From: a bacterium
GTDB lineage: Bacteria; Patescibacteriota; Microgenomatia; UBA1406; GWC2-37-13
Reading direction: 5' to 3'
Assembly (NCBI GenBank): GCA_021833625.1
Contig: JAKBEU010000002.1
Location: forward strand, 323,332 to 356,621
Length of the DNA stretch: 33,290 nucleotides
This document shows, piece by piece, positions 2,414 through 33,290 of the stretch (position 1 is its first letter; each line of letters begins with the position of its first letter). The position numbers and the translations under genes are program-made. A model generated the notes under the pieces. The model did no database searches. It had not been told where the DNA came from and saw nothing but the letters and a program-made list of their open reading frames with translations.

Positions 2414-2911
2414 ATGTTTAAAAAAATAATAAGAAAATTATATAAAGGCCCGCAAAAAAAAGTATTCGCATTTATTGACAGTCAGAATCTTAATCTTGGT
2501 GTTCAAAGCCAGGGAGGCAAACTCGACTTTCGCAAATTCAGACAGTATTTAACAATGAAATATTCGGTATCGAAAGCGTTTCTCTTTATCGGATATATGA
2601 AGGAACATAAAAACCTCTATACCTATCTTGAGGAGTCGGGATACATCTGTATCTATAAAAAAACGCTGGAGTACAAAGACAAAAAAGAGACAATTGTGAA
2701 GGGGAATATCGACGCTGAACTCGTGCTGAATGCAATGATTGAGTTTCCTCATTATGACAAAGCGATTATCGTATCGGGAGACGGGGATTTCTATCCTCTT
2801 ATCGACTATTTGAAGAAGAAAAATAAGCTGCTTAAGATAATTACGCCGAACAAAAAGTATTCGTCTTTGCTTCTCAAATTCTTGCCATATATCATCAGCA
2901 TGGAGGCGTAA
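2414..2911 (+). CDS. NYN-domain (DUF88/LabA-like) putative ribonuclease
   Basis: A 165-residue NYN-domain protein of the PIN-like nuclease superfamily. The acidic residues of the predicted metal site are visible in FIDSQNLN (D22), KGNIDAELVLNAM, and VSGDGDFYPLIDYL. A short basic N-terminal leader (MFKKIIRKLYKG) precedes the domain. Members are predicted Mg-dependent RNases that act in RNA turnover or processing. The substrate here is unknown. It follows the nuclease gene by 5 nt. A -10 hexamer for the next gene lies just after its stop codon. Confidence 0.8.
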   Translation: MFKKIIRKLYKGPQKKVFAFIDSQNLNLGVQSQGGKLDFRKFRQYLTMKYSVSKAFLFIGYMKEHKNLYTYLEESGYICIYKKTLEYKDKKETIVKGNIDAELVLNAMIEFPHYDKAIIVSGDGDFYPLIDYLKKKNKLLKIITPNKKYSSLLLKFLPYIISMEA

Positions 2912-2916
2912 AGCTG

Positions 2917-2922
2917 TATAAT
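2917..2922 (+). promoter_or_regulatory. -10 element upstream of murL, predicted leaderless start
   Basis: A perfect TATAAT ends 8 nt before the murL ATG at 2931. I see no good -35 hexamer at 16-18 bp. The spacing would put transcription initiation at or next to the start codon. The same spacing recurs at other promoters in this window. Confidence 0.5.
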
Positions 2923-2930
2923 AGTAAGGT

Positions 2931-4154
2931 ATGCACTCGTTTATATTCGATTCCTATAATGTCGATCTTACGGGGCGGACACTGTTCTTCCGTTATTCCC
3001 TTGACGGGTATTCATTCATTGAGCGCATTGAGCTGAAAGAGCCCCTTTCAAAAGAGTTAAATCAAGACCTTCTGAACGCCATTCTGTTTAACTTACATCT
3101 TGCGCTTGGCATCTCCTACTGGAAATTATTGTGCCCGACTCATATTGAGGTGAGAAGCGGCAAACTGTCAAAAAAACAGGCAGCATTTTGGGACACTATA
3201 TATACGGAAGGCCTGGGAGAATTTTACTATCGTAACAACATAGACTTTCGGGGACGCGTATCGTTTCCCTACGCTGATAAACCCTCATTTGTCCCCGATG
3301 GCGCGAGCCTAACGGTCGGAAAGAGGCAGTTGGTCGGAATCGGCGGCGGAAAAGATTCTGCCCTCACCTGGGAGATGATGAAGAAAAAAAAGATTGATGC
3401 AACAGGCCTTGTCATTGAAACGCAAAAGAAGTTCGGTATGGTAGACAATTTGGCAAAGATAGGAAACATCCCCCTTATTCACGTGTCCCGAACGGTTGAT
3501 CCGCAAATTGCCGTTCTTTCTAAACAGCCGGGGTTTTATCACGGACACGTACCGATTTCCATGATTTATGCATGGATCGGAATGTTGGTGTGTGTGGCAA
3601 ACGGTTTCCAAAGCTTTGTCGCTTCAAATGAAAAAAGTGCGGAAGAAGGGAATATTGAATATTTAGGAGCGCAGATAAATCACCAGTGGAGCAAAACCAT
3701 GCGTTTTGAAAAGCTATTTTCTGCGTATGTAAAACAGTTTATTTCGCCTGACTTAAAATATTATTCCCCCCTACGCAAACTGACCGAATTGGAAATAATA
3801 GGGCAGTTTGTCAAGTATCCGAAGTATTTTCCGTTTGTGTCCAGCTGCAACAGAAACTTTTCAACGACACATCCTTTGGTTGAAAAACTGTGGTGCGGGG
3901 AATGCGCAAAGTGTGCATTTGCCTTTCTTCTGTTTGCCGCCCATCTTCCCAAAGAACAGGTCGTTACTATGTTTGGAAAAAACATGTTCCAGGACGAACG
4001 CCTCATTGGCCTGTTCCGCGACCTTGAAGGTCGCGGGGGCATGAAACCGTTTGATTGTGTAGGGACATTTGAAGAGGCACAGGAGGCGCTGGCAATGATT
4101 AATAAAAAAGGAGAATTCAAGAATGATGTTGTTTTTGAAGCGTTGATGAAATAA
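2931..4154 (+). CDS. murL: UDP-MurNAc-L-Ala-L-Glu epimerase (MurL family)
   Basis: A 407-residue protein matching the MurL family described from Xanthomonas, which converts the terminal L-Glu of UDP-MurNAc-L-Ala-L-Glu to D-Glu. The ATP-pyrophosphatase-type PP-loop VGIGGGKDSALTW is at about residues 135-147, and a late cysteine cluster CGECAKCAF is present. Other stretches (SNEKSAEEGN, HPLVEKLWCGECAKC) fit this family better than an asparagine synthase or ExsB type. The murD gene follows after 5 nt, the expected partner. I infer that this organism adds L-Glu and then epimerises it, instead of making free D-Glu with MurI. A -10 box lies directly before the start. Confidence 0.8.
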   Translation: MHSFIFDSYNVDLTGRTLFFRYSLDGYSFIERIELKEPLSKELNQDLLNAILFNLHLALGISYWKLLCPTHIEVRSGKLSKKQAAFWDTIYTEGLGEFYYRNNIDFRGRVSFPYADKPSFVPDGASLTVGKRQLVGIGGGKDSALTWEMMKKKKIDATGLVIETQKKFGMVDNLAKIGNIPLIHVSRTVDPQIAVLSKQPGFYHGHVPISMIYAWIGMLVCVANGFQSFVASNEKSAEEGNIEYLGAQINHQWSKTMRFEKLFSAYVKQFISPDLKYYSPLRKLTELEIIGQFVKYPKYFPFVSSCNRNFSTTHPLVEKLWCGECAKCAFAFLLFAAHLPKEQVVTMFGKNMFQDERLIGLFRDLEGRGGMKPFDCVGTFEEAQEALAMINKKGEFKNDVVFEALMK

Positions 4155-4159
4155 ACACT

Positions 4160-5410
4160 ATGAAAATTGCAGAACTGCAGACGTATAAAAAAATACTTAT
4201 TTTGGGAATGGGGAAGGAAGGGGCATCTGCAAAGCGTTTTATTGAAAGAGTAGCCCCCGACTCGGTTGTTGATACCGCCGACATAAAAGACGGTCAGGAT
4301 TATTTAAAAAAACAAGACGGGGCAGACCTTGTCGTGCGATCACCTGGAGTGCACACGGAACTGGTAACGAAAAAATACACAACGGCGACCAATCTTTTTT
4401 TTGCAAACTGCCTGGGGCAAATAATCGGCGTCACGGGGACGAAGGGGAAAAGTACGACGGCAAGCCTTATCGCGGCACTATTGAAACAGTCTATTCCAGA
4501 CGTCCGGCTGGTCGGGAATATTGGCTGTCCCATGCTTGATGAGCTTGAGGACGCAACTGCGAATACCGTATTTGTCGTTGAGCTTTCCAGTTATCAGCTG
4601 ACCGATATTAATTATTCTCCGCACATTGTCGTTATCGTAAACTGGTTTCCGGAACACCGGGATTTCCACGGATCATTTGAATTGTATAAACAGTCTAAAG
4701 AGCGGGTGCTTTCATTCCAAACTCCGTCCGACTACTTTATTTTTGATCCTTCCGAGGAACCGGCCAAATGGGGAGGGTTCACCAAAGCACATCTTCTGCC
4801 GTACGCGACGGATTTTCCTTTTGATGAGAAAAAGATACAATTATTGGGGTCTCACAACAAAAAAAATATTCAGGCTACCGTGACGGTTGCACGACTTTGC
4901 AAGGTCAGTGAAGAAAAAATCGCTAAGGCAATTTACGGATTCGTCCCGCTCCCTCACCGTCTTCAGAAAGTCGGGACCTTCAAAGGAATTACGTTTTATG
5001 ACGACGCGATCTCTACAACTCCTCAATCAACCATCGCTGCCCTTAATACCCTGCCACAGGTTGAAACTCTTTTTTTGGGAGGGCAGGACAGGGGATATGA
5101 ATTCGATGAGCTCATAAAAGTACTGAAGGAAAAAAATATAAAAAATATCGTCCTGTTTCCCGATACGGGAAAACGCATAAAGGAAGGTATTGAAAAAATG
5201 AACGGGTATAGTCCTTCCCTATTGGAAATCAGAGACATGGAACAGGCGGTAAAGTTTGCCTACGAAAAAACGGGCAAAGGAGCCATATGTCTCCTTTCAA
5301 CCGCATCCCCAAGCTACTCTGTTTGGAAAAATTTTGAGGAAAAAGGAGATTTATTTCAGCAATTTGTTACATCAATGGGGGATACACATGAAACAACAAG
5401 TAACGGCTAA
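4160..5410 (+). CDS. murD: UDP-MurNAc-L-alanine glutamate ligase (MurD or MurD2)
   Basis: A 416-residue Mur ligase that adds glutamate to UDP-MurNAc-L-Ala in the cytoplasm. It shows a short Rossmann-like N-domain (ILILGMGKEG), the ATP P-loop GVTGTKGKSTTASL (about residues 89-102), VVELSSYQL, the LPHRLQ hinge motif, GGQDRG, and the MurD-type C-terminal LSTASPSYSVWKNFEEKGD. The length is slightly below the usual 440-450. Because it directly follows murL, its substrate may be L-Glu (MurD2-type) rather than D-Glu. Sequence alone does not prove this. Its last 23 nt overlap ftsW. Confidence 0.88.
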   Translation: MKIAELQTYKKILILGMGKEGASAKRFIERVAPDSVVDTADIKDGQDYLKKQDGADLVVRSPGVHTELVTKKYTTATNLFFANCLGQIIGVTGTKGKSTTASLIAALLKQSIPDVRLVGNIGCPMLDELEDATANTVFVVELSSYQLTDINYSPHIVVIVNWFPEHRDFHGSFELYKQSKERVLSFQTPSDYFIFDPSEEPAKWGGFTKAHLLPYATDFPFDEKKIQLLGSHNKKNIQATVTVARLCKVSEEKIAKAIYGFVPLPHRLQKVGTFKGITFYDDAISTTPQSTIAALNTLPQVETLFLGGQDRGYEFDELIKVLKEKNIKNIVLFPDTGKRIKEGIEKMNGYSPSLLEIRDMEQAVKFAYEKTGKGAICLLSTASPSYSVWKNFEEKGDLFQQFVTSMGDTHETTSNG

Positions 5411-6485
5411 GCCGGTCCAATCCAGGCGGAACAAAATTCTCGCAACCCTCGTAACCCTTCCTATTCTTCTTTCCGTTGGCGGTCTTTTTTTTGTTTTTGA
5501 AGCGTCATACATCCGCGCATTCTCGGAGTTTGGGGACAGTTTTCATTATCTGAAGGTCCAGGCATTGTGGATAGTGCTCGGGACCGCCATCATGCTTATT
5601 CTTTCCCTTGTCAATTATCACAAGCTGTATTATTTTGCATTCTACTTCATGTTTGCCTCCGTCATTTCCCTTTTTCTCGTGTTGATACCGGGAGTGGGAA
5701 CGGCAGTCGGAGGAGCCAGAAGGTGGCTGTTTGGCTTTCAACCCTCGGAGATTGCAAAGCTCGCCTCCATTATTTATCTTTCGTCATGGTTCCTGACAAA
5801 AGAACGGAAACGGTTTTTTTCATTCGTTTTCCTGTTGGGGCTCGTCATGTTTCTTATTATTCTGCAGCCGGACATGGGAACGGCAATTATCATATTTTGC
5901 ATAAGCATCATTACCTATTTTCTTGCAGGAGTGGAACTCCGGCATTTGCTGCTTCTTATCCCAGCCTCAGCCGGCGGTTTTTTTATTCTGGCAAAAGCGG
6001 CTCCCTACCGGCTTAAGCGTCTGATGGCTTTTTTCGATCCAAAGCTCGATCCTCTCGGAATTACCTATCACATTAACCAGATACTTATTTCCCTTACCAA
6101 CGGAGGACTGTTCGGACGGGGATTTGGTGCGTCAAAGCAAAAACATCTTTATCTTCCCGAGGCACACACGGACTCCATTTTTGCGATAGTGGGAGAGGAG
6201 ATAGGATTTATCGGAGGAGCTTTGGTCATTTGCGCATTCGTCATGCTTATTCTTTACATTTTCCGTATTGCGGAAAAAGCCCCCGACAGGTATGGGAGAT
6301 TGCTTGCGGGAAGTATTTTCGGATTTTTCGGGATGCAGACTATCGTTAACTTAGGCAGCATGGTGCACATCATTCCCCTGGCCGGCGTTCCGCTTCCTTT
6401 CATTTCGTATGGAGGCTCCAATTTGCTGCTGTGTTTTTCACTGATGGGAATAGTGTTGAACATTGCCCGGCAAACAAGAATTTAA
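5388..6485 (+). CDS. ftsW: SEDS peptidoglycan polymerase FtsW
   Basis: A 365-residue polytopic SEDS-family glycosyltransferase that polymerises lipid II during division. It has a short cytoplasmic N-terminus rich in Lys/Arg, about ten hydrophobic helices, GGARRW, QPSEIAKL, LQPDMGTA, the catalytic loop LPEAHTDSIFAIVGEE with the conserved Asp, and the C-terminal LPFISYGGSNLL. I chose ATG 5388 (MKQQVTAK), preceded by GGGG at 7-10 nt, over a longer frame that begins deep inside murD. It overlaps murD by 23 nt. Placement between murD and murG supports FtsW rather than RodA. Confidence 0.88.
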   Translation: MKQQVTAKPVQSRRNKILATLVTLPILLSVGGLFFVFEASYIRAFSEFGDSFHYLKVQALWIVLGTAIMLILSLVNYHKLYYFAFYFMFASVISLFLVLIPGVGTAVGGARRWLFGFQPSEIAKLASIIYLSSWFLTKERKRFFSFVFLLGLVMFLIILQPDMGTAIIIFCISIITYFLAGVELRHLLLLIPASAGGFFILAKAAPYRLKRLMAFFDPKLDPLGITYHINQILISLTNGGLFGRGFGASKQKHLYLPEAHTDSIFAIVGEEIGFIGGALVICAFVMLILYIFRIAEKAPDRYGRLLAGSIFGFFGMQTIVNLGSMVHIIPLAGVPLPFISYGGSNLLLCFSLMGIVLNIARQTRI

Positions 6486-6531
6486 TGGATTAAATGGCGG
6501 ATGGACAAATAATCATTTAGAATAAGGGAAT

Positions 6532-7635
6532 ATGAAAAAGATTTTAGTGTGCGGGGGACATCCGACACCGGCTCTTGCTGTCATTGATGAATTTAAAAAA
6601 GAGAATAAGGAGAGGGATATTGTTTTTGTGGGACGGAAATATGCAATAGAAACCGAACGCACGCTTTCCTTTGAGTATAAGGCGTGTCAGGACAGATCAA
6701 TACGGTTTTTGGAACTGCAGGCGGGACGGATAACAAGGGTACTGTCCAAATCCTCACTACTTAATTTTATTCGGGTCCCTTTGGGTTTTCTTCAAGCCCT
6801 CAAAATTTTGCTTCGTGAAGAGGCGGATGTCATTCTGTCATTCGGCGGATATTTGGCCCTCCCCATTGCATTCTGGGGGTGGGTCATGAGGAAAAAAGTA
6901 ATCACCCACGAACAGACAATGCGTCCCGGAAGGGCGAATAAAATAATCGGCAACTTCTCACAAAAAATATTCGTGGCATTTGAGGAGACATTGCAGTATT
7001 TTCCCAAAGGAAAAACACAATGGATTGGTAATCCCGTACGGGAAGTGGTATTTAAAAAAGGGAAGTTACCCTTCGAACTTCCGTTGGAGCTTCCCGTTGT
7101 GTACATAACCGGAGGGTCACTCGGGTCGCACAGTATTAACGAACATATTTTTACCATCCTTCCGCGCCTTTTGACTTTCTGTAGCGTTATTCACCAGACG
7201 GGAGACGTAAAAGAGTATGGAGATTATGATGTTGCCCGAAAATTACAAAAAACAATTTCTAAAGACGTAAAAGGAGCGTATGTGCCCCTGAAGCACGTTT
7301 CCGACTCGGAGATAGGAGCGGTATACAACGTTGCAAGTTGTGTGGTTGCACGGTCTGGTGCAAATACGTTTTTTGAACTTGTTGCCTTAAAAAAACCGGC
7401 AATCCTTATCCCGCTCCCCTGGTCGGCAAACGGAGAACAGAAAGCCCACGCGCATTTTTTTGTCACGCACGACATAGGAAAACTGTTTGATCAGAAGCTT
7501 CCGAGCAACGAACTGTACTTGTTTATTAAAGACATGGTTGCGTCACTTGACAGTTATAAACATAATTTTTCTGCATTACCACTTGAATTAAAACACGATG
7601 CCGCACAAACGATCGTTGCCGAATCTCTTCGTTAA
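6532..7635 (+). CDS. murG: UDP-GlcNAc--lipid I N-acetylglucosaminyltransferase (MurG)
   Basis: A 367-residue GT28-family enzyme that turns lipid I into lipid II at the inner membrane face. Motifs seen are GGHPTPALAV near the N-terminus, ILSFGGYLALPI, HEQTMRPGRANKI (compare HEQNxxPGxxN), TGGSLGSHSIN, HQTGD, and ARSGANTFFELVALKKPAILIPLPW. The glycine-rich N-terminal loop is shorter than the usual GGTGGHxxPALA, and the usual HQ near the donor site reads EQKAHA. Both deviations look lineage-specific rather than inactivating. The 3' end overlaps ftsQ by 38 nt in another frame, a sign of tight coupling. An AAGGGA ribosome site precedes the ATG. Confidence 0.87.
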   Translation: MKKILVCGGHPTPALAVIDEFKKENKERDIVFVGRKYAIETERTLSFEYKACQDRSIRFLELQAGRITRVLSKSSLLNFIRVPLGFLQALKILLREEADVILSFGGYLALPIAFWGWVMRKKVITHEQTMRPGRANKIIGNFSQKIFVAFEETLQYFPKGKTQWIGNPVREVVFKKGKLPFELPLELPVVYITGGSLGSHSINEHIFTILPRLLTFCSVIHQTGDVKEYGDYDVARKLQKTISKDVKGAYVPLKHVSDSEIGAVYNVASCVVARSGANTFFELVALKKPAILIPLPWSANGEQKAHAHFFVTHDIGKLFDQKLPSNELYLFIKDMVASLDSYKHNFSALPLELKHDAAQTIVAESLR

Positions 7636-16656: not shown

Positions 16657-16729
16657 GAATCCGTAGTTCAGTTGGTAGAACGTTGCATTCACATTGCAAA
16701 GGTCACAGGTTCGAGTCCTGTCGGATCCA
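16657..16729 (+). tRNA. tRNA-Val (anticodon CAC)
   Basis: A full cloverleaf can be drawn: acceptor 16657-16663 with 16722-16728, D-stem GTTC/GAAC, anticodon stem TTGCA/TGCAA with loop TTCACAT (anticodon CAC at 16690-16692, decoding GUG), and T-stem ACAGG/CCTGT with loop TTCGAGT. The discriminator is A and no CCA is encoded. There is one flaw: acceptor position 2 (A16658) faces C16727, an A-C mismatch. The 3' half would pair perfectly with GGATCCG, but the gene has GAATCCG. Phage-like genes begin right after it, so this is a candidate integration site. Confidence 0.88.
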
Positions 16730-16739
16730 CATCGTAGGG

Positions 16740-17498: not shown

Positions 17499-17860
17499 AT
17501 ATACAACACACTGAACCGATGAAAATCCTCCACGACTGTTTAAAGCCGGAACCGCTATCCAAATGCTGTGCAGCTGTAATTATCCAGGGAGGTATATGTT
17601 CGGCATGCAAAGGACATATCGGACCAGAAGTGAAGAGATTCACCTATGGGGCCGGATGGGTTGAAGAACAGGGAGACGGCAACTATGACGTTTTCTCTGG
17701 AGAACCATGGGGATATACACGACTTGTAACCGCGAGAGTGTATGTCAGCAATGGAAAGCCTGTTTGTTGTTTTTTTGAATGTGGAAAGTATGCGAAGAAA
17801 TATAAGGATTTTAAATGCAAGCATGTTCGACTGTTAGAAAAACATTTGAAAAATATATGA
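17495..17860 (+). CDS. Hypothetical protein with cysteine-rich zinc-ribbon-like N-terminus
   Basis: A 121-residue protein. Cysteines in KCCAAV and GGICSACKG (about residues 23-40) look like a small zinc ribbon. A second cysteine set (CCFFECGKY, KCKHVRLLEKHL) lies near the end and includes a His. A good ribosome site (AAAGGAG) precedes the start. The stop overlaps the ATG of the ERF gene (ATGA), indicating coupling. A role with nucleic acid is possible from the zinc motifs, but no specific function is visible. Confidence 0.6.
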   Translation: MNIQHTEPMKILHDCLKPEPLSKCCAAVIIQGGICSACKGHIGPEVKRFTYGAGWVEEQGDGNYDVFSGEPWGYTRLVTARVYVSNGKPVCCFFECGKYAKKYKDFKCKHVRLLEKHLKNI

Positions 17861-18486
17861 AGACATCAGAATCAATCATAAAGATAGTTCCGGCACTACT
17901 TAAGGCACAAAAAGCAATAGGAGCCGCAAAAAAAGGAGCGACCAATCCGTTCTTCCATAGTAAATACGCCGACCTTGGAAGCGTAATGGAAGCTTGTAAG
18001 GATGAACTGAACGGAAATGGAGTCGTGATACTTCAACCAGTAGTTGGGACAATGGTGGAAACAGTGTTGCTGCACGAATCTGGTGAATGGATGACATCTG
18101 AAACGCCAATTATATGTGCTACACAAAATGACCCTCAAAAACTAGGAAGCGCAATAACTTATGCGCGCAGATACGGCCTTCAGAGCATGCTCTTTATTCC
18201 TGCCGAGGATGATGATGGAAATGGAGCAAGCAATGGAAAGCCTGTTGCGCCAAAGACAACAACTCATCCTCAGAAAGCAGAAAAAGATCCAACCGATGGA
18301 TGGAAGGATCCACGCTCAACAACTGAAACTATAAAGGCTCCAATAGTCGAACATCCCGATTTGGGTAAATGTAAAGATTGTGGAGCTGTAAATATACGCT
18401 ATACGACCGGAACTATAGGTTGCAAAAATAAATGTTGGAGTAAAAGAATCGGGATGAAGCCCGCAAGCGAAATGAAAGCACATTAA
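17857..18486 (+). CDS. ERF-family single-strand annealing recombinase with C-terminal zinc finger
   Basis: A 209-residue protein. The N-terminal 130 residues match the ERF superfamily (PF04404 type): LLKAQKAIGAAKKGATNPFFHSKYADLGSV, then VVILQPVVG, then the conserved GSAITYARRYGLQSML. ERF proteins anneal single-stranded DNA in phage recombination and genome circularisation. A Pro/Thr/Lys-rich linker leads to a four-cysteine element (CKDCG, CKNKC, about residues 170-195) that probably binds zinc. I start at ATG 17857 (MKTSES), which overlaps the preceding stop, instead of an earlier ATG inside the upstream gene. Confidence 0.85.
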   Translation: MKTSESIIKIVPALLKAQKAIGAAKKGATNPFFHSKYADLGSVMEACKDELNGNGVVILQPVVGTMVETVLLHESGEWMTSETPIICATQNDPQKLGSAITYARRYGLQSMLFIPAEDDDGNGASNGKPVAPKTTTHPQKAEKDPTDGWKDPRSTTETIKAPIVEHPDLGKCKDCGAVNIRYTTGTIGCKNKCWSKRIGMKPASEMKAH

Positions 18487-18675: not shown

Positions 18676-19767
18676 ATGAAATGGTTTAAACATGATTGCG
18701 ATACAAGTCTCGATCCAAAAATAAAACTATTGAAGAAGAAATTCAAAATAGAAGGAGTCGGTGTATATTTTGAAATCAATAGGCTTATTGCGGAAAACGT
18801 AGCCGACGATATTGAGGAATGGGGTTATTTGCCAAAGGAATACACAGATAACCAAGAGCTACTTGAGGAGGAAATATGTACAGAAACTGTACAGAGACTA
18901 CACGATATCATAAATTACTGCATAGAGATCGGATTGCTCTATAAAAATGGGGAAAGGATATCTAACCCAAAAATACTTCTTCGAGCGGATAGATATACGG
19001 AGCAAAAGAGCAAGGAAAAAGGGATAAATATAACCATGTATGTACAGAAACTGTACAGAATATGTACAGAGTCTGTCCCTAGAAGAGAAGAGAAAGAAAA
19101 GAAGGAAAAGAACGAAACGAAGTTTAAGAAAGAGAGTGTGAGAGAAAACAAAGACGTTACTTCGCCTCCGGCTCAGTCGAGATTAAGAAAATCGGAATTG
19201 GAAAAAGATTCTGATTTTAACGAGAAGAGAAACAACGCATTAAAAATGGCTGCTAGTTTAGCTGTGGCTCTTTTTCTATTCGTCTTTCCGGTGTCTGCTC
19301 ATGAAGTAATTATCCGGTACACGATACATGGAAAATCGCCCCTTCCTGGGATAAAAACGGTCAAGACGACCAATATATCGGAAAAGCCAGAGAAATCGAA
19401 AATAGCACGGATAAACCCGGTAAAAATCAATACTACTGATGGTATCACTCCATTCAAAAAATATCTCACAGTAAAAGGTGAGGAAACCAGACAAGCTGTC
19501 TTAAAAATTGCAGAACAAGTTTATTCAGAAGACAATCTCCTCGCTTTTGACAACATCCTGAAGAAAGAATCGGGATACAGATTCGATGCAGTCAACGAAA
19601 TCGGTGCTTGTGGAATGGGTCAGGCACTCCCCTGCGAAAAAATGAACTGTCCGCTATCAGAAGAAGGTATCGCCTGCCAAACAGAATGGATTATGGGTTA
19701 TATCGACAGAAGATATGGAAATCCTATAAAAGCTTGGGAACATCATTTACAAGTTAATTGGTACTAA
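18676..19767 (+). CDS. Fusion: replication-initiator-like N-domain plus signal peptide and muralytic C-domain
   Basis: One 363-residue frame with two unrelated halves. Residues 1-110 resemble the Lin1244/Lin1753-type (DUF4373) domain of phage replisome organisers (MKWFKHDCDTSLDPKIKLLKKKF, GVGVYFEINRLIAENV). A Lys/Glu-rich linker follows. Residues 191-210 form a textbook secretion signal (MAASLAVALFLFVFPVSAHE). The last 90 residues look like a lysozyme/transglycosylase-type domain (KKESGYRFDAVNEIGACGMGQ, with a candidate catalytic Glu, then CQTEWIMGYIDRRYGNPIKAWEHHL). M191 (ATG 19246) could start a separate secreted protein, but I see no ribosome site or -10 box there. It may be a true fusion, two genes in one frame, or a deletion product. 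Confidence 0.7.
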   Translation: MKWFKHDCDTSLDPKIKLLKKKFKIEGVGVYFEINRLIAENVADDIEEWGYLPKEYTDNQELLEEEICTETVQRLHDIINYCIEIGLLYKNGERISNPKILLRADRYTEQKSKEKGINITMYVQKLYRICTESVPRREEKEKKEKNETKFKKESVRENKDVTSPPAQSRLRKSELEKDSDFNEKRNNALKMAASLAVALFLFVFPVSAHEVIIRYTIHGKSPLPGIKTVKTTNISEKPEKSKIARINPVKINTTDGITPFKKYLTVKGEETRQAVLKIAEQVYSEDNLLAFDNILKKESGYRFDAVNEIGACGMGQALPCEKMNCPLSEEGIACQTEWIMGYIDRRYGNPIKAWEHHLQVNWY

Positions 19768-19769
19768 CT

Positions 19770-20027
19770 ATGGACGATCAACCAATGGATGAGGAATTAA
19801 TATCCGGAGAAGAGGAACGCGATGAAGAGCGACCAAGCCTCGCATCGCAGAAACAATTGAGATATATCGGTATGATGCTTACCTACAAAAAGAAAGAAAA
19901 GGAAGTGATTTACAAATTTTTTGGAGTGGATACGATGAAAAAGCTAACGAAAAACCAGGCTAAGAAAGTCATTGATCAGCTCCAAAAATATCCGGATGTT
20001 ATAAAACCTAAATTTTTACAACCATGA
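19770..20027 (+). CDS. Hypothetical small phage protein with ASQKQLRYI motif
   Basis: An 85-residue protein. The N-terminus is acidic (MDDQPMDEELISGEEERDEERP). The rest has SLASQKQLRYIGMMLTYKKKEKE and LTKNQAKKVIDQLQKYP, a two-helix motif that recurs in small phage proteins near recombination genes. I chose ATG 19770 because the upstream alternative lies within the previous gene. The stop overlaps the next start. No function can be assigned. Confidence 0.55.
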   Translation: MDDQPMDEELISGEEERDEERPSLASQKQLRYIGMMLTYKKKEKEVIYKFFGVDTMKKLTKNQAKKVIDQLQKYPDVIKPKFLQP

Positions 20028-20369: not shown

Positions 20370-20663
20370 ATGAGAAAAGGAAACAACCACAAGAGAGATT
20401 TTTATAAACGTCAAGTTGAAACTCTGGAGCGGGAACGGCAAGCGTACAAAGAAAAATACGAAAAATTAGAAAATGATCGCTTAAAGAAGATAGAGGAAGG
20501 AAAAAAGATAAAACGATATGATGCGACTGTATATTGCACCAATTGTATGCATGTAAATAATGTTTCCGTTCCGGAAGGATTGGCAATTAAAGATGGAGAT
20601 TGCACCTATTGCCGTGTTAAGTGCTGCCTTTTAAAAGTTGTCTCCTATCCTGGAAAGATATAA
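20370..20663 (+). CDS. Coiled-coil plus zinc-ribbon protein
   Basis: A 97-residue protein. Residues 1-50 are highly charged and helical (ETLERERQAYKEKYEKLENDRLKKIEEG), fitting a coiled coil. Residues 56-85 contain CTNCMHVN and CTYCRVKC, two CxxC pairs of a zinc ribbon. It is one of several zinc-ribbon proteins in this module. The function is unknown. The RtcB gene begins 5 nt after its stop, so they probably share a transcript. Confidence 0.55.
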   Translation: MRKGNNHKRDFYKRQVETLERERQAYKEKYEKLENDRLKKIEEGKKIKRYDATVYCTNCMHVNNVSVPEGLAIKDGDCTYCRVKCCLLKVVSYPGKI

Positions 20664-20668
20664 TTCTT

Positions 20669-21862
20669 ATGAAAGTCATATCAACAGAACAGAAACCAAT
20701 TAAATTATGGTTAGATGATATAGAAGATGGAGCATTAGAACAGGCTAAGAATTTAGCCAATCTTCCTTTTACGTTTCGACATGTTTCTATAATGCCGGAC
20801 TCCCATCAGGGATACGGTATGCCCATAGGGGGAGTATTGGCAACCGAAGGCGTGGTGATCCCTAATGCGGTAGGAGTTGATATCGGGTGCGGTATGTGTG
20901 CGGTTGAAACGTCTTTGAAAGAAATCGACACGGACACCTTAAAAAAAATAATGGGAGAAATACGCAAAGCTATTCCCGTTGGCTTCGGACATCATAAGGA
21001 AAAACAGAACGAAAAATATATGCCTCGGATTGACAATTCTGCTTACTATTCAAAAGAAAATTTAGATGTAAAATTTAAGATTTGTGGTAGGGAGTATAGT
21101 AGTGCTCTTACTCAGATAGGTACACTTGGAGGAGGTAATCATTTCATCGAGATACAAAAAGGGAATAACGGCCATATCTGGATTATGATACATTCCGGTA
21201 GCCGGAACTTTGGGTATAAGGTCGCCCATTACTACAATGAACTGGCGATCTCCCTAAATGAACTATGGCATACTTCCATTCCGAAGGAATGGGAACTTGC
21301 TTTTTTGCCTCTTGATAGTCAAGAGGGACAGGATTACTTACGGGAAATGCAGTACTGCGTTGAATTTGCCCTTGCTAACCGCAAGCTGATGATGGATAGA
21401 ATTATCGATATATTCAACGGGGTGTTCGATAACGCTATCTCAAAGTATCCCATGATTAATATAGCTCACAATTATGCGGTAATGGAAAATCATTTCGGAA
21501 AGAACGTCATGGTCCACCGAAAAGGAGCAACTAAGGCAACCCTGAACACAATAGGGATTATTCCAGGATCGCAAGGCACTGCCTCTTATATCGTCAGAGG
21601 TAAGGGAAACCCAGAGAGTTTTCAATCTTGTTCACATGGAGCAGGACGAAAGATGGGACGAAAAGCGGCACAAAGGACGCTTAATTTAGAAGAAGAAAAG
21701 AAAAAGCTTGATGATATGGGAGTAATACATGCGATACGAGGAATACAAGACCTAGATGAAGCGCCAGGAAGTTACAAAGATATTTCTGTTGTCATGAAAA
21801 ACCAGGAAGATCTTGTCGATATTTTAGTGGAATTAAAGCCTTTGGCGGTAATTAAAGGCTAA
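20669..21862 (+). CDS. rtcB: RNA-splicing ligase RtcB family protein
   Basis: A 397-residue protein that matches RtcB, the GTP- and Mn-dependent ligase joining RNA 2',3'-cyclic phosphate (or 3'-phosphate) and 5'-OH ends. Motifs in order are MPDSHQGYGMPIGGV (about 42-56), VGVDIGCGMC (D71, C74, metal binding), GTLGGGNHFIEI, HSGSRNFG, VHRKGATKA, PGSQGTASYIVRGKGN, and CSHGAGRKMGR with the His that is guanylylated. All expected ligands are present. I start at MKVIST (20669). It sits within the phage early module. An RNA repair role, for example mending tRNAs cut by a host defence nuclease, is inference. Confidence 0.9.
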   Translation: MKVISTEQKPIKLWLDDIEDGALEQAKNLANLPFTFRHVSIMPDSHQGYGMPIGGVLATEGVVIPNAVGVDIGCGMCAVETSLKEIDTDTLKKIMGEIRKAIPVGFGHHKEKQNEKYMPRIDNSAYYSKENLDVKFKICGREYSSALTQIGTLGGGNHFIEIQKGNNGHIWIMIHSGSRNFGYKVAHYYNELAISLNELWHTSIPKEWELAFLPLDSQEGQDYLREMQYCVEFALANRKLMMDRIIDIFNGVFDNAISKYPMINIAHNYAVMENHFGKNVMVHRKGATKATLNTIGIIPGSQGTASYIVRGKGNPESFQSCSHGAGRKMGRKAAQRTLNLEEEKKKLDDMGVIHAIRGIQDLDEAPGSYKDISVVMKNQEDLVDILVELKPLAVIKG

Positions 21863-23768: not shown

Positions 23769-24104
23769 TTACTTGAGAAAATGGGTATACAAGCTCTGTA
23801 TTTGCCCTTGCATCGTTGTTACTTGCGTCTGATATCCCTTGAATGACTCTTGGAACGTTGTATGATCTTTTACGAGTTGATCAATTACTTCTTCATATTT
23901 TTCATGATCTTCTTTGTTTTTTTCTGCCCTGACAGTCAGGGAGTTAATAGAACTTTGGAGAGGAGATAGCTTAGAAGTAAGCCAAAGATTCCCAAACATA
24001 ATGAAAAGATTAGCGATTGCAGTAATTGCCAATCCGAGGATGATTTTGACCGCGTTTTCTTGTACCATTTTGAGTAGCCATCCATGTTTGTCATTCGTGT
24101 TCAT
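23769..24104 (-). CDS. Single-pass membrane protein with coiled coil, lysis cassette
   Basis: A 111-residue protein. A membrane helix (AVKIILGLAITAIANLFIMFGNLWL, about residues 18-42) is followed by a coiled coil of about 60 residues (LSPLQSSINSLTVRAEKNKEDHEKYEEVIDQL). The layout recalls XhlA/haemolysin-type holin accessories and some spanin-like proteins. It overlaps the endolysin gene by 4 nt (ATGA) and precedes the holin by 19 nt, so it is translated with them. Which lysis role it has is inference. Confidence 0.6.
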   Translation of the reverse strand: MNTNDKHGWLLKMVQENAVKIILGLAITAIANLFIMFGNLWLTSKLSPLQSSINSLTVRAEKNKEDHEKYEEVIDQLVKDHTTFQESFKGYQTQVTTMQGQIQSLYTHFLK

Positions 24105-24742
24105 GCTGATGTTACATAATTCCTAATTTTCTCTTTCATAGCCTCAATCCTATCTTGGCACTCTTTATCTTTATTTGCTAATAGTCTATCTGTATCGGTT
24201 TGGAGCGTCTTTATGAACAAATCCTTACCTTCAATCGCTTTATTTAAGGTATCAATTTCTTTTTTTAATTTATCTGTTTCGGTTGGTTCTGAAGGGATAG
24301 GTGGTTTAGAGAGATTTTCAGTCAGATAAGGCCATGGATTGCATGTACCGCCATATCCATCCTGCTTATTCCTGGGCTTTCTAAAGTATCCCCAATGAAG
24401 ATGTGGACCTGTCGAGTTTCCGGTATTATCTGAAATCCCTATCTGTTGTCCTTCAAGGATTTTGTCTCCCGGATTTACATTGAATGATTTCAGATGCGCT
24501 AGTATCGACCCTTCGACATCGTTTTCGATTTTCACGTACATGCCGTAGCCGTATTCATCGTAAGCCGCTTCAATTACCGTTCCATCATGCGGAGCGACTA
24601 TCGGAGTACCTGTTGGTGTTCCATAATCAACGCCATTATGTCCTTTATAGCCAAATTGCGCGTACATGTGGATACCATTTAAGACAAGATCGTTTCCCCA
24701 TTCTTGGGTTACCGGAAACGTACCTAAAAAGGGTCTTCTCAT
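24101..24742 (-). CDS. M23-family endopeptidase (endolysin) with coiled-coil tail
   Basis: A 213-residue protein. The LytM/M23 zinc peptidase domain covers about residues 1-145: HNGVD (H35, D39), the LAHL His at 83, and STGPHLHWG (H114, H116), all required ligands. The tail from about residue 150 is a coiled coil (KLKKEIDTLNKAIEGKDLFIKTL). It would cut peptide cross-links in peptidoglycan. There is no signal peptide, so it depends on the holin. The order endolysin, membrane coiled-coil, holin on one strand is a classical lysis cassette. A -10 element stands 8 nt before its start. Confidence 0.88.
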   Translation of the reverse strand: MRRPFLGTFPVTQEWGNDLVLNGIHMYAQFGYKGHNGVDYGTPTGTPIVAPHDGTVIEAAYDEYGYGMYVKIENDVEGSILAHLKSFNVNPGDKILEGQQIGISDNTGNSTGPHLHWGYFRKPRNKQDGYGGTCNPWPYLTENLSKPPIPSEPTETDKLKKEIDTLNKAIEGKDLFIKTLQTDTDRLLANKDKECQDRIEAMKEKIRNYVTSA

Positions 24743-33035: not shown

Positions 33036-33254
33036 TTATAAATCCTGTCCAACTGTATAACCATGAAAAACACCGTTTGTCGCGTCCGCAACCATTATTC
33101 CAAATGTATCTTTTCGATTTTTTCCAGTCGTTAATGTCGGAGCTGATCCACCAGCCCATCTAATTTGAGTCGTTATTGTATGGGTTCCGCCTCCTGCAGC
33201 TGCGGTTATATCTACAGCTGTCCCTGCCTGTGCATTTGCAACAGTCGTTGCCAC
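33036..33254 (-). CDS. C-terminal end of a tail-fibre-like protein, 5' end unclear at window edge
   Basis: About 72 residues can be read from GTG 33254. The segment IRWAGGSAPTLTTGKNRKDTFGIM...GYTVGQDL has the pattern W.GG.APTLT..G..D.F.F.....G....G...GQ that ends many phage tail-fibre and tail-spike proteins. The frame continues upstream to an in-frame TAA (33279-33281), with ATG CAA just before that stop. A GTG start gives a very short protein. The alternative is a longer gene broken by a mutation or by an assembly error near the sequence end. Confidence 0.55.
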   Translation of the reverse strand: MATTVANAQAGTAVDITAAAGGGTHTITTQIRWAGGSAPTLTTGKNRKDTFGIMVADATNGVFHGYTVGQDL

Positions 33255-33290
33255 CTTGATAGTTGTGGTACTCGCATTTTATTGCATAAT

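Follow-up and report, generated by a model that had tools for sequence, protein, structure and literature searches.

Locus and prophage setting

The window, which is the whole stretch of 33,290 nucleotides analysed here, forms the end of contig C1 of a host genome of 1.10 Mb in three contigs. Judged by this size and by the small genomes found in the phylum and class searches, the host looks CPR-like. Host genes encoding FtsW/RodA, L21, L27, a ParB-like protein and a signal peptidase run up to a tRNA-Val gene, and phage genes lie behind it. Among the latter is a single ATG-started, stop-free open frame of 363 aa, in which a replication-initiator domain of the Lin1244 type is followed by an internal signal sequence and a cell-wall enzyme. 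The features of the locus, numbered from the first letter of the window, are as follows.

16657-16730, plus strand: tRNA-Val gene, left edge of the prophage as judged from gene content
17815-18486, plus strand: ERF single-strand annealing protein, upstream neighbour of the fused ORF
18676-19767, plus strand: fused ORF, 363 aa (ORF translation; start context at the 67th percentile of 66 genome starts)
18676-19080, plus strand: initiator half with the Lin1244_N domain, residues 1-135 (Pfam; confident AlphaFold model, winged-helix-like arrangement)
18877-18898, plus strand: iteron cluster 1, two TGTACAGA copies 11 bp apart
19041-19073, plus strand: iteron cluster 2, three TGTACAGA copies at 11-bp steps
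19077-19156, plus strand: purine-rich tract (84% A/G) encoding the K/E-rich linker, directly 3' of the iterons
19125-19245, plus strand: putative fusion junction zone, about residues 150-190, where the initiator C-terminal part is absent
19198-19200, plus strand: TTG, candidate internal start in a poor context (21st percentile)
19246-19299, plus strand: internal signal sequence, residues 191-208, containing ATG 19246 and the VSA^HE site
19438-19764, plus strand: lytic-transglycosylase domain, residues 255-363, with the APF C-terminal family at 290-363
19567-19569, plus strand: conserved Glu298 of the lytic-transglycosylase domain
24101-24742, minus strand: M23 peptidase, candidate ordinary endolysin of the prophage

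Contig C1 ends within the prophage: the 126 bp at 33154-33279 recur unchanged at the beginning of contig C2 (L184), leaving just the final bases of the window unmatched. Contig C2 goes on with genes for a major head protein, a portal, a terminase and a tyrosine integrase, so that the prophage, with its main modules present, extends over both contigs for about 35 kb. The end overlap looks like a break in a short-read assembly graph, a setting in which single-base frame errors would be rare. A second attachment site of the prophage was looked for and not found. The M23 peptidase gene belongs to a candidate lysis cassette on the minus strand together with a weakly spanin-like gene and a gene for a small membrane protein.

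In the early region, the product of the next gene after the fused ORF (19770-20027) is small and resembles Mu GemA only weakly, below the Pfam threshold (E 4e-4), and a full RtcB RNA ligase gene is present at 20621-21862. At least one glycosyltransferase-like gene with similar neighbours is found among the structural genes of the prophage (L184, positions 3615-7191).

Architecture of the fused frame

In the N-terminal half, the Lin1244_N domain was detected at residues 3-89 well above its curated cut-off (Pfam, E 4e-10, 40.7 bits versus 25), and PHROG 20981 matches residues 1-177, the match covering only positions 1-172 of its 293. In the C-terminal half, the PHROG 12661 'transglycosylase' profile matches residues 204-363 (E 5e-13) and NCBIfam AggPromo_Cterm matches residues 290-363 above its curated cut-off (E 6e-18, 65 bits versus 40). 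By these profile scores, both domain assignments are far above chance. The enzyme half also has the conserved catalytic Glu (ES motif, Glu298) and the GAxGxxQA motif.

The AlphaFold model of the fused ORF contains two confident domains, at about residues 10-135 and 255-363, with disorder at residues 160-176 and 205-247 and a helix at residues 177-203 overlapping the hydrophobic segment. Foldseek returned no match in the PDB at E below 0.001 for either domain model, and statements on the fold therefore rest on profile matches and moderate Z-scores; a sequence search of solved structures with small profiles likewise gave no useful match for the fused ORF. No PF06970 (RepA_N) or Phage_rep_O match to the fused ORF was found in Pfam (RepA_N at E up to 0.1). 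Comparison of the N-domain model with RepA_N initiators gave Z of 6-7 across 86-88 residues, a score equalled by ORC winged helices, and this structural likeness is suggestive only.

The hydrophobic core of the internal signal sequence comprises residues 191-208 and is preceded by a 20-residue stretch with six K/R and five D/E. Read by eye, VSA^HE appears to be a good signal-peptidase site. Signal-arrest-release endolysins have an uncleaved, weakly hydrophobic anchor at the N-terminus that is released later; the segment of the fused ORF is internal and has this apparent cleavage-type site.

These results bear out the sequence-only reading, made earlier from the letters of the window, that one uninterrupted frame joins a DNA-binding-type domain, now assigned to Lin1244_N, through an internal signal sequence to a secreted muralytic domain. 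The cleavable signal peptide and the lysozyme-like domain that it described are both present, except that the profiles place the enzyme among APF-type lytic transglycosylases and not lysozymes proper, the fold being common to both.

Iterons within the initiator gene

The unit TGTACAGA occurs six times in the window against 0.56 expected. Five of them fall within the initiator half, at 18877, 18888, 19041, 19052 and 19063 (gene offsets 201, 212, 365, 376 and 387), and the step within each cluster is 11 bp. In the initiator gene of a same-family prophage (L218), TCCGGA is found at gene offsets 206, 217, 377 and 388, and in that of L020 TCGGGA is found at offsets 206 and 217, with the reverse complement at 388. 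Across the three genes the iteron places are constant and the repeat sequence changes as a set by lineage, which is the behaviour expected of co-evolving binding sites.

Exact lag-11 repeats 8 nt or longer occur in 32 of 63 non-redundant Lin1244 genes and in none of 80 control ORFs, these being other ORFs of similar length unfiltered for real genes. Repeats were also counted at lag 10 (33 of 63 Lin1244 genes versus 1 of 80 controls) and lag 15 (36 versus 8 of 80), which may come from the purine-rich K/E-linker tract 3' of the iterons. Counting of 8-mers revealed no significant iterons in the initiator genes of L002 and L191; L002 has a lag-11 pair.

Initiator binding sites inside the initiator's own gene are known for lambda O (PMC7466680) and pSK41 Rep (PMC5703833), and by this analogy the replication origin probably lies inside the Lin1244 initiator gene and has been kept by the fusion. 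A literature search, largely without subscription journals, found no paper on the Lin1244 mechanism or on in-gene iterons. The Lin1244 family is widespread, and with 11-bp iterons at a fixed place inside the gene its origins should be predictable from sequence. By the same feature, Lin1244 would join lambda O and the RepA_N initiators in how it acts.

Absence of the C-terminal part of the initiator

The fused ORF was compared with 69 distinct Lin1244 relatives, none of which is fused to the transglycosylase; in all other cases Lin1244 is a separate gene. The relatives are 200-290 aa long, and in 68 of the 69 the K/E linker is followed by 52 or more residues. This C-terminal part is absent from the initiator half in the window, where the alignment passes from the initiator linker straight into the enzyme leader, and only the N-terminal half of the fused ORF counts, by this alignment, as a Lin1244-type initiator. 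Profiles of replisome organizers and helicase loaders match the region C-terminal to the linker in the L020 Lin1244 protein. No remnant of the initiator C-terminal part was seen by eye in the other two frames of 18900-19400.

The missing part equals what would be taken out if two separate genes had lost a middle segment in the assembly, and a contig breaks elsewhere in the same prophage, which indicates that the prophage is hard to assemble. However, the junction is not bordered by any long repeat on which the assembly might have collapsed, and the frame would have needed to stay open by chance (about 1 in 3); such a fault is therefore considered very unlikely.

The same fusion, which the sequence-only reading had proposed to look for in other CPR phages, was not found in viral contigs, among the matches listed in the genome-contig scan, or in the sampled genomes of the host's phylum, class and family, and relatives of both halves are only 30-53% identical to the fused ORF. 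The fusion is probably a lineage-specific event. Across 72 genomes of the family to which the host belongs, a single Lin1244 relative turned up, a stand-alone initiator of 284 aa (genome G570, L218). In L020, a full Lin1244 gene overlaps a separate secreted gene by 4 nt. Homology of the latter to the transglycosylase was not supported (hhalign probability 0.4%), and L020 therefore serves only as a case of a full Lin1244 gene followed by a separate secreted gene.

The secreted transglycosylase in early phage modules

Relatives of the enzyme half are separate genes starting with a signal sequence, often within replication modules (L019, L105, L108/L191 and L110), and the initiators near them are of the Lin1244, DnaD-like or other types. 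The gene order is ERF, DnaD-like initiator, HTH gene and enzyme in L191; Lin1244, two small genes and enzyme in L110; and recombination-type gene, nuclease-like gene, SSB, two small genes and enzyme in L019. Separate genes in relatives, which the sequence-only reading had named as one of two findings that would speak against a genuine fusion, do exist. Several phage contigs thus have a secreted transglycosylase next to replication initiators, and in the prophage of the window the enzyme stands apart from the ordinary lysis genes. The sequence-only reading had found a muralytic enzyme in the early module odd, which is only partly true: judged by gene order the arrangement is recurrent and not a singular oddity, and the lysis genes of phage SPP1 are likewise transcribed early.

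Among 54 non-tail enzyme ORFs, the sole exception with the enzyme fused to another domain is in L107 (positions 2611-3456), where a PHROG 1123 domain (residues 2-93) is in frame with a signal sequence and an APF-type transglycosylase. This gene lies close behind a lambda O-type initiator gene, and the same gene is present in L189 and L217. This unrelated phage protein is an independent fusion of another cytoplasmic domain to the same signal-plus-transglycosylase unit.

With the L107 enzyme likewise placed behind a cytoplasmic domain, a selected fusion in the window has to be considered, that is, a bifunctional protein whose initiator half lacks the recruiting part and holds the iteron origin at the membrane, or dampens replication, whether of itself or of competing phages, while the enzyme half works outside. 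The retained iterons and DNA-binding domain are consistent with this, and ICP1 Odn offers a precedent for an initiator DNA-binding domain re-used in a chimera (PMC8263062). Against it, there is a single example, nothing shows selection, and the two halves have no evident common task, so that we regard a selected bifunctional protein as quite unlikely. That the iteron-carrying initiator domain is membrane-anchored by the wall-enzyme leader and functions as such is a long shot; if true, origin binding, for replication or for blocking phages with the same iterons, would be tied to the envelope and to enzyme export, and L107 would represent a second, independent instance of this principle.

Translation starts in the fused frame

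Start contexts were scored with a matrix built from 66 long ORFs of the genome (the window and L184-L186). The start at 18676 reaches a score attained by only 0.7% of internal ATGs and is, by context, a good, well-placed start of the fused ORF. The sequence-only reading had suggested a second product from an internal start at 19246, and the ATG is indeed in frame there. Its context is at the 12th percentile, below 88% of the genome's starts, the predicted product carries no positive charge ahead of the hydrophobic core, and the sequence immediately ahead of it contains no plus-strand promoter-like match.

Two products from one frame, the 363-aa chain and a short secreted enzyme from ATG 19246 or TTG 19198, would have a precedent in the second lysin embedded in frame in mycobacteriophage Ms6 lysA (PMC3111421). 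In addition, the chain from about residue 175 onward looks like the n-region of unfused enzyme relatives such as that of L105. Starts in this genome lie in A/T-rich contexts, with a Shine-Dalgarno-like site at only 3 of 66 long-ORF starts, so that a missing Shine-Dalgarno sequence at the internal starts is no counter-argument. Both candidate starts nevertheless stand in poor contexts, and the ATG 19246 product would lack the n-region charge and the upstream promoter-like match. An internal product is weakly supported by these features, and two products from the frame are judged unlikely.

Probable origin and consequences of the fusion

The best explanation of the locus is that two adjacent early genes have genuinely become fused in frame, within a prophage that otherwise looks complete, and we give this a probability of roughly 0.6. 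Ancestrally, the initiator gene would have been followed by a closely adjoining gene for a secreted APF-type lytic transglycosylase, the initiator consisting of the Lin1244 winged-helix domain, an iteron-bearing linker and a C-terminal part recruiting the replication machinery. About 100 codons and the stop would then have been lost in frame, joining the initiator linker to the enzyme leader, which is the simplest account because the C-terminal part of 68 of 69 relatives is missing here. A deletion fusing two phage genes, one of the options in the sequence-only reading, is thereby the best supported, with separate genes in relatives and the missing initiator part pointing to it; the deletion is inferred and not seen, since the searches turned up no close relative in which the pair is unfused.

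Translation from 18676 would likely give one 363-aa chain. Its N-terminal half would stay in the cytoplasm and bind the iterons in its own gene, the internal signal sequence would insert N-in/C-out, and cleavage by signal peptidase after residue 208 would release the transglycosylase to the wall. The fusion would thus imply one polypeptide with the DNA-binding half inside, with which the charge pattern is consistent.

The fused protein probably retains enzyme function. With the C-terminal part missing, it is doubtful that the protein can initiate replication, unless a protein of the host or another one of the phage takes over that role. The equivalent C-domain of the pSK41 initiator binds primase, and replication depends on it (PMC5703833). 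By analogy, the prophage may be replication-deficient, or the function may be supplied by another protein.

Comparison with known systems

The fused ORF shares with Lin1244/Lin1753-like initiators (PF14297; PHROG 20981 and 2562) the N-terminal domain, the K/E linker and the 11-bp iterons at the same gene positions, whereas those proteins are 200-290 aa long, keep the C-terminal part and are unfused. As in lambda O (PMC7466680) and pSK41 Rep (PMC5703833), the sites are central in the initiator's own gene, between the DNA-binding and C-terminal parts, but unlike in lambda O and RepA_N initiators the iterons are 11 bp and a secreted enzyme stands in place of the C-terminal part.

On the enzyme side, phage secreted APF-type transglycosylases (NF052397, PHROG 12661) have the same signal sequence and catalytic domain with the conserved Glu, and the fused ORF differs from them in the 190 cytoplasmic residues preceding the signal sequence. 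In Ms6 LysA with its embedded Lysin241, a wall enzyme may similarly lie in frame inside a longer gene, but there the internal start is served by a consensus ribosome-binding site and each of the two products is a lysin (PMC3111421). The origin-directed nuclease Odn of ICP1 also combines an initiator DNA-binding domain with an enzyme domain (PMC8263062); Odn is a nuclease acting on satellite DNA, whereas the enzyme of the fused ORF is predicted to be exported and to act on the wall.
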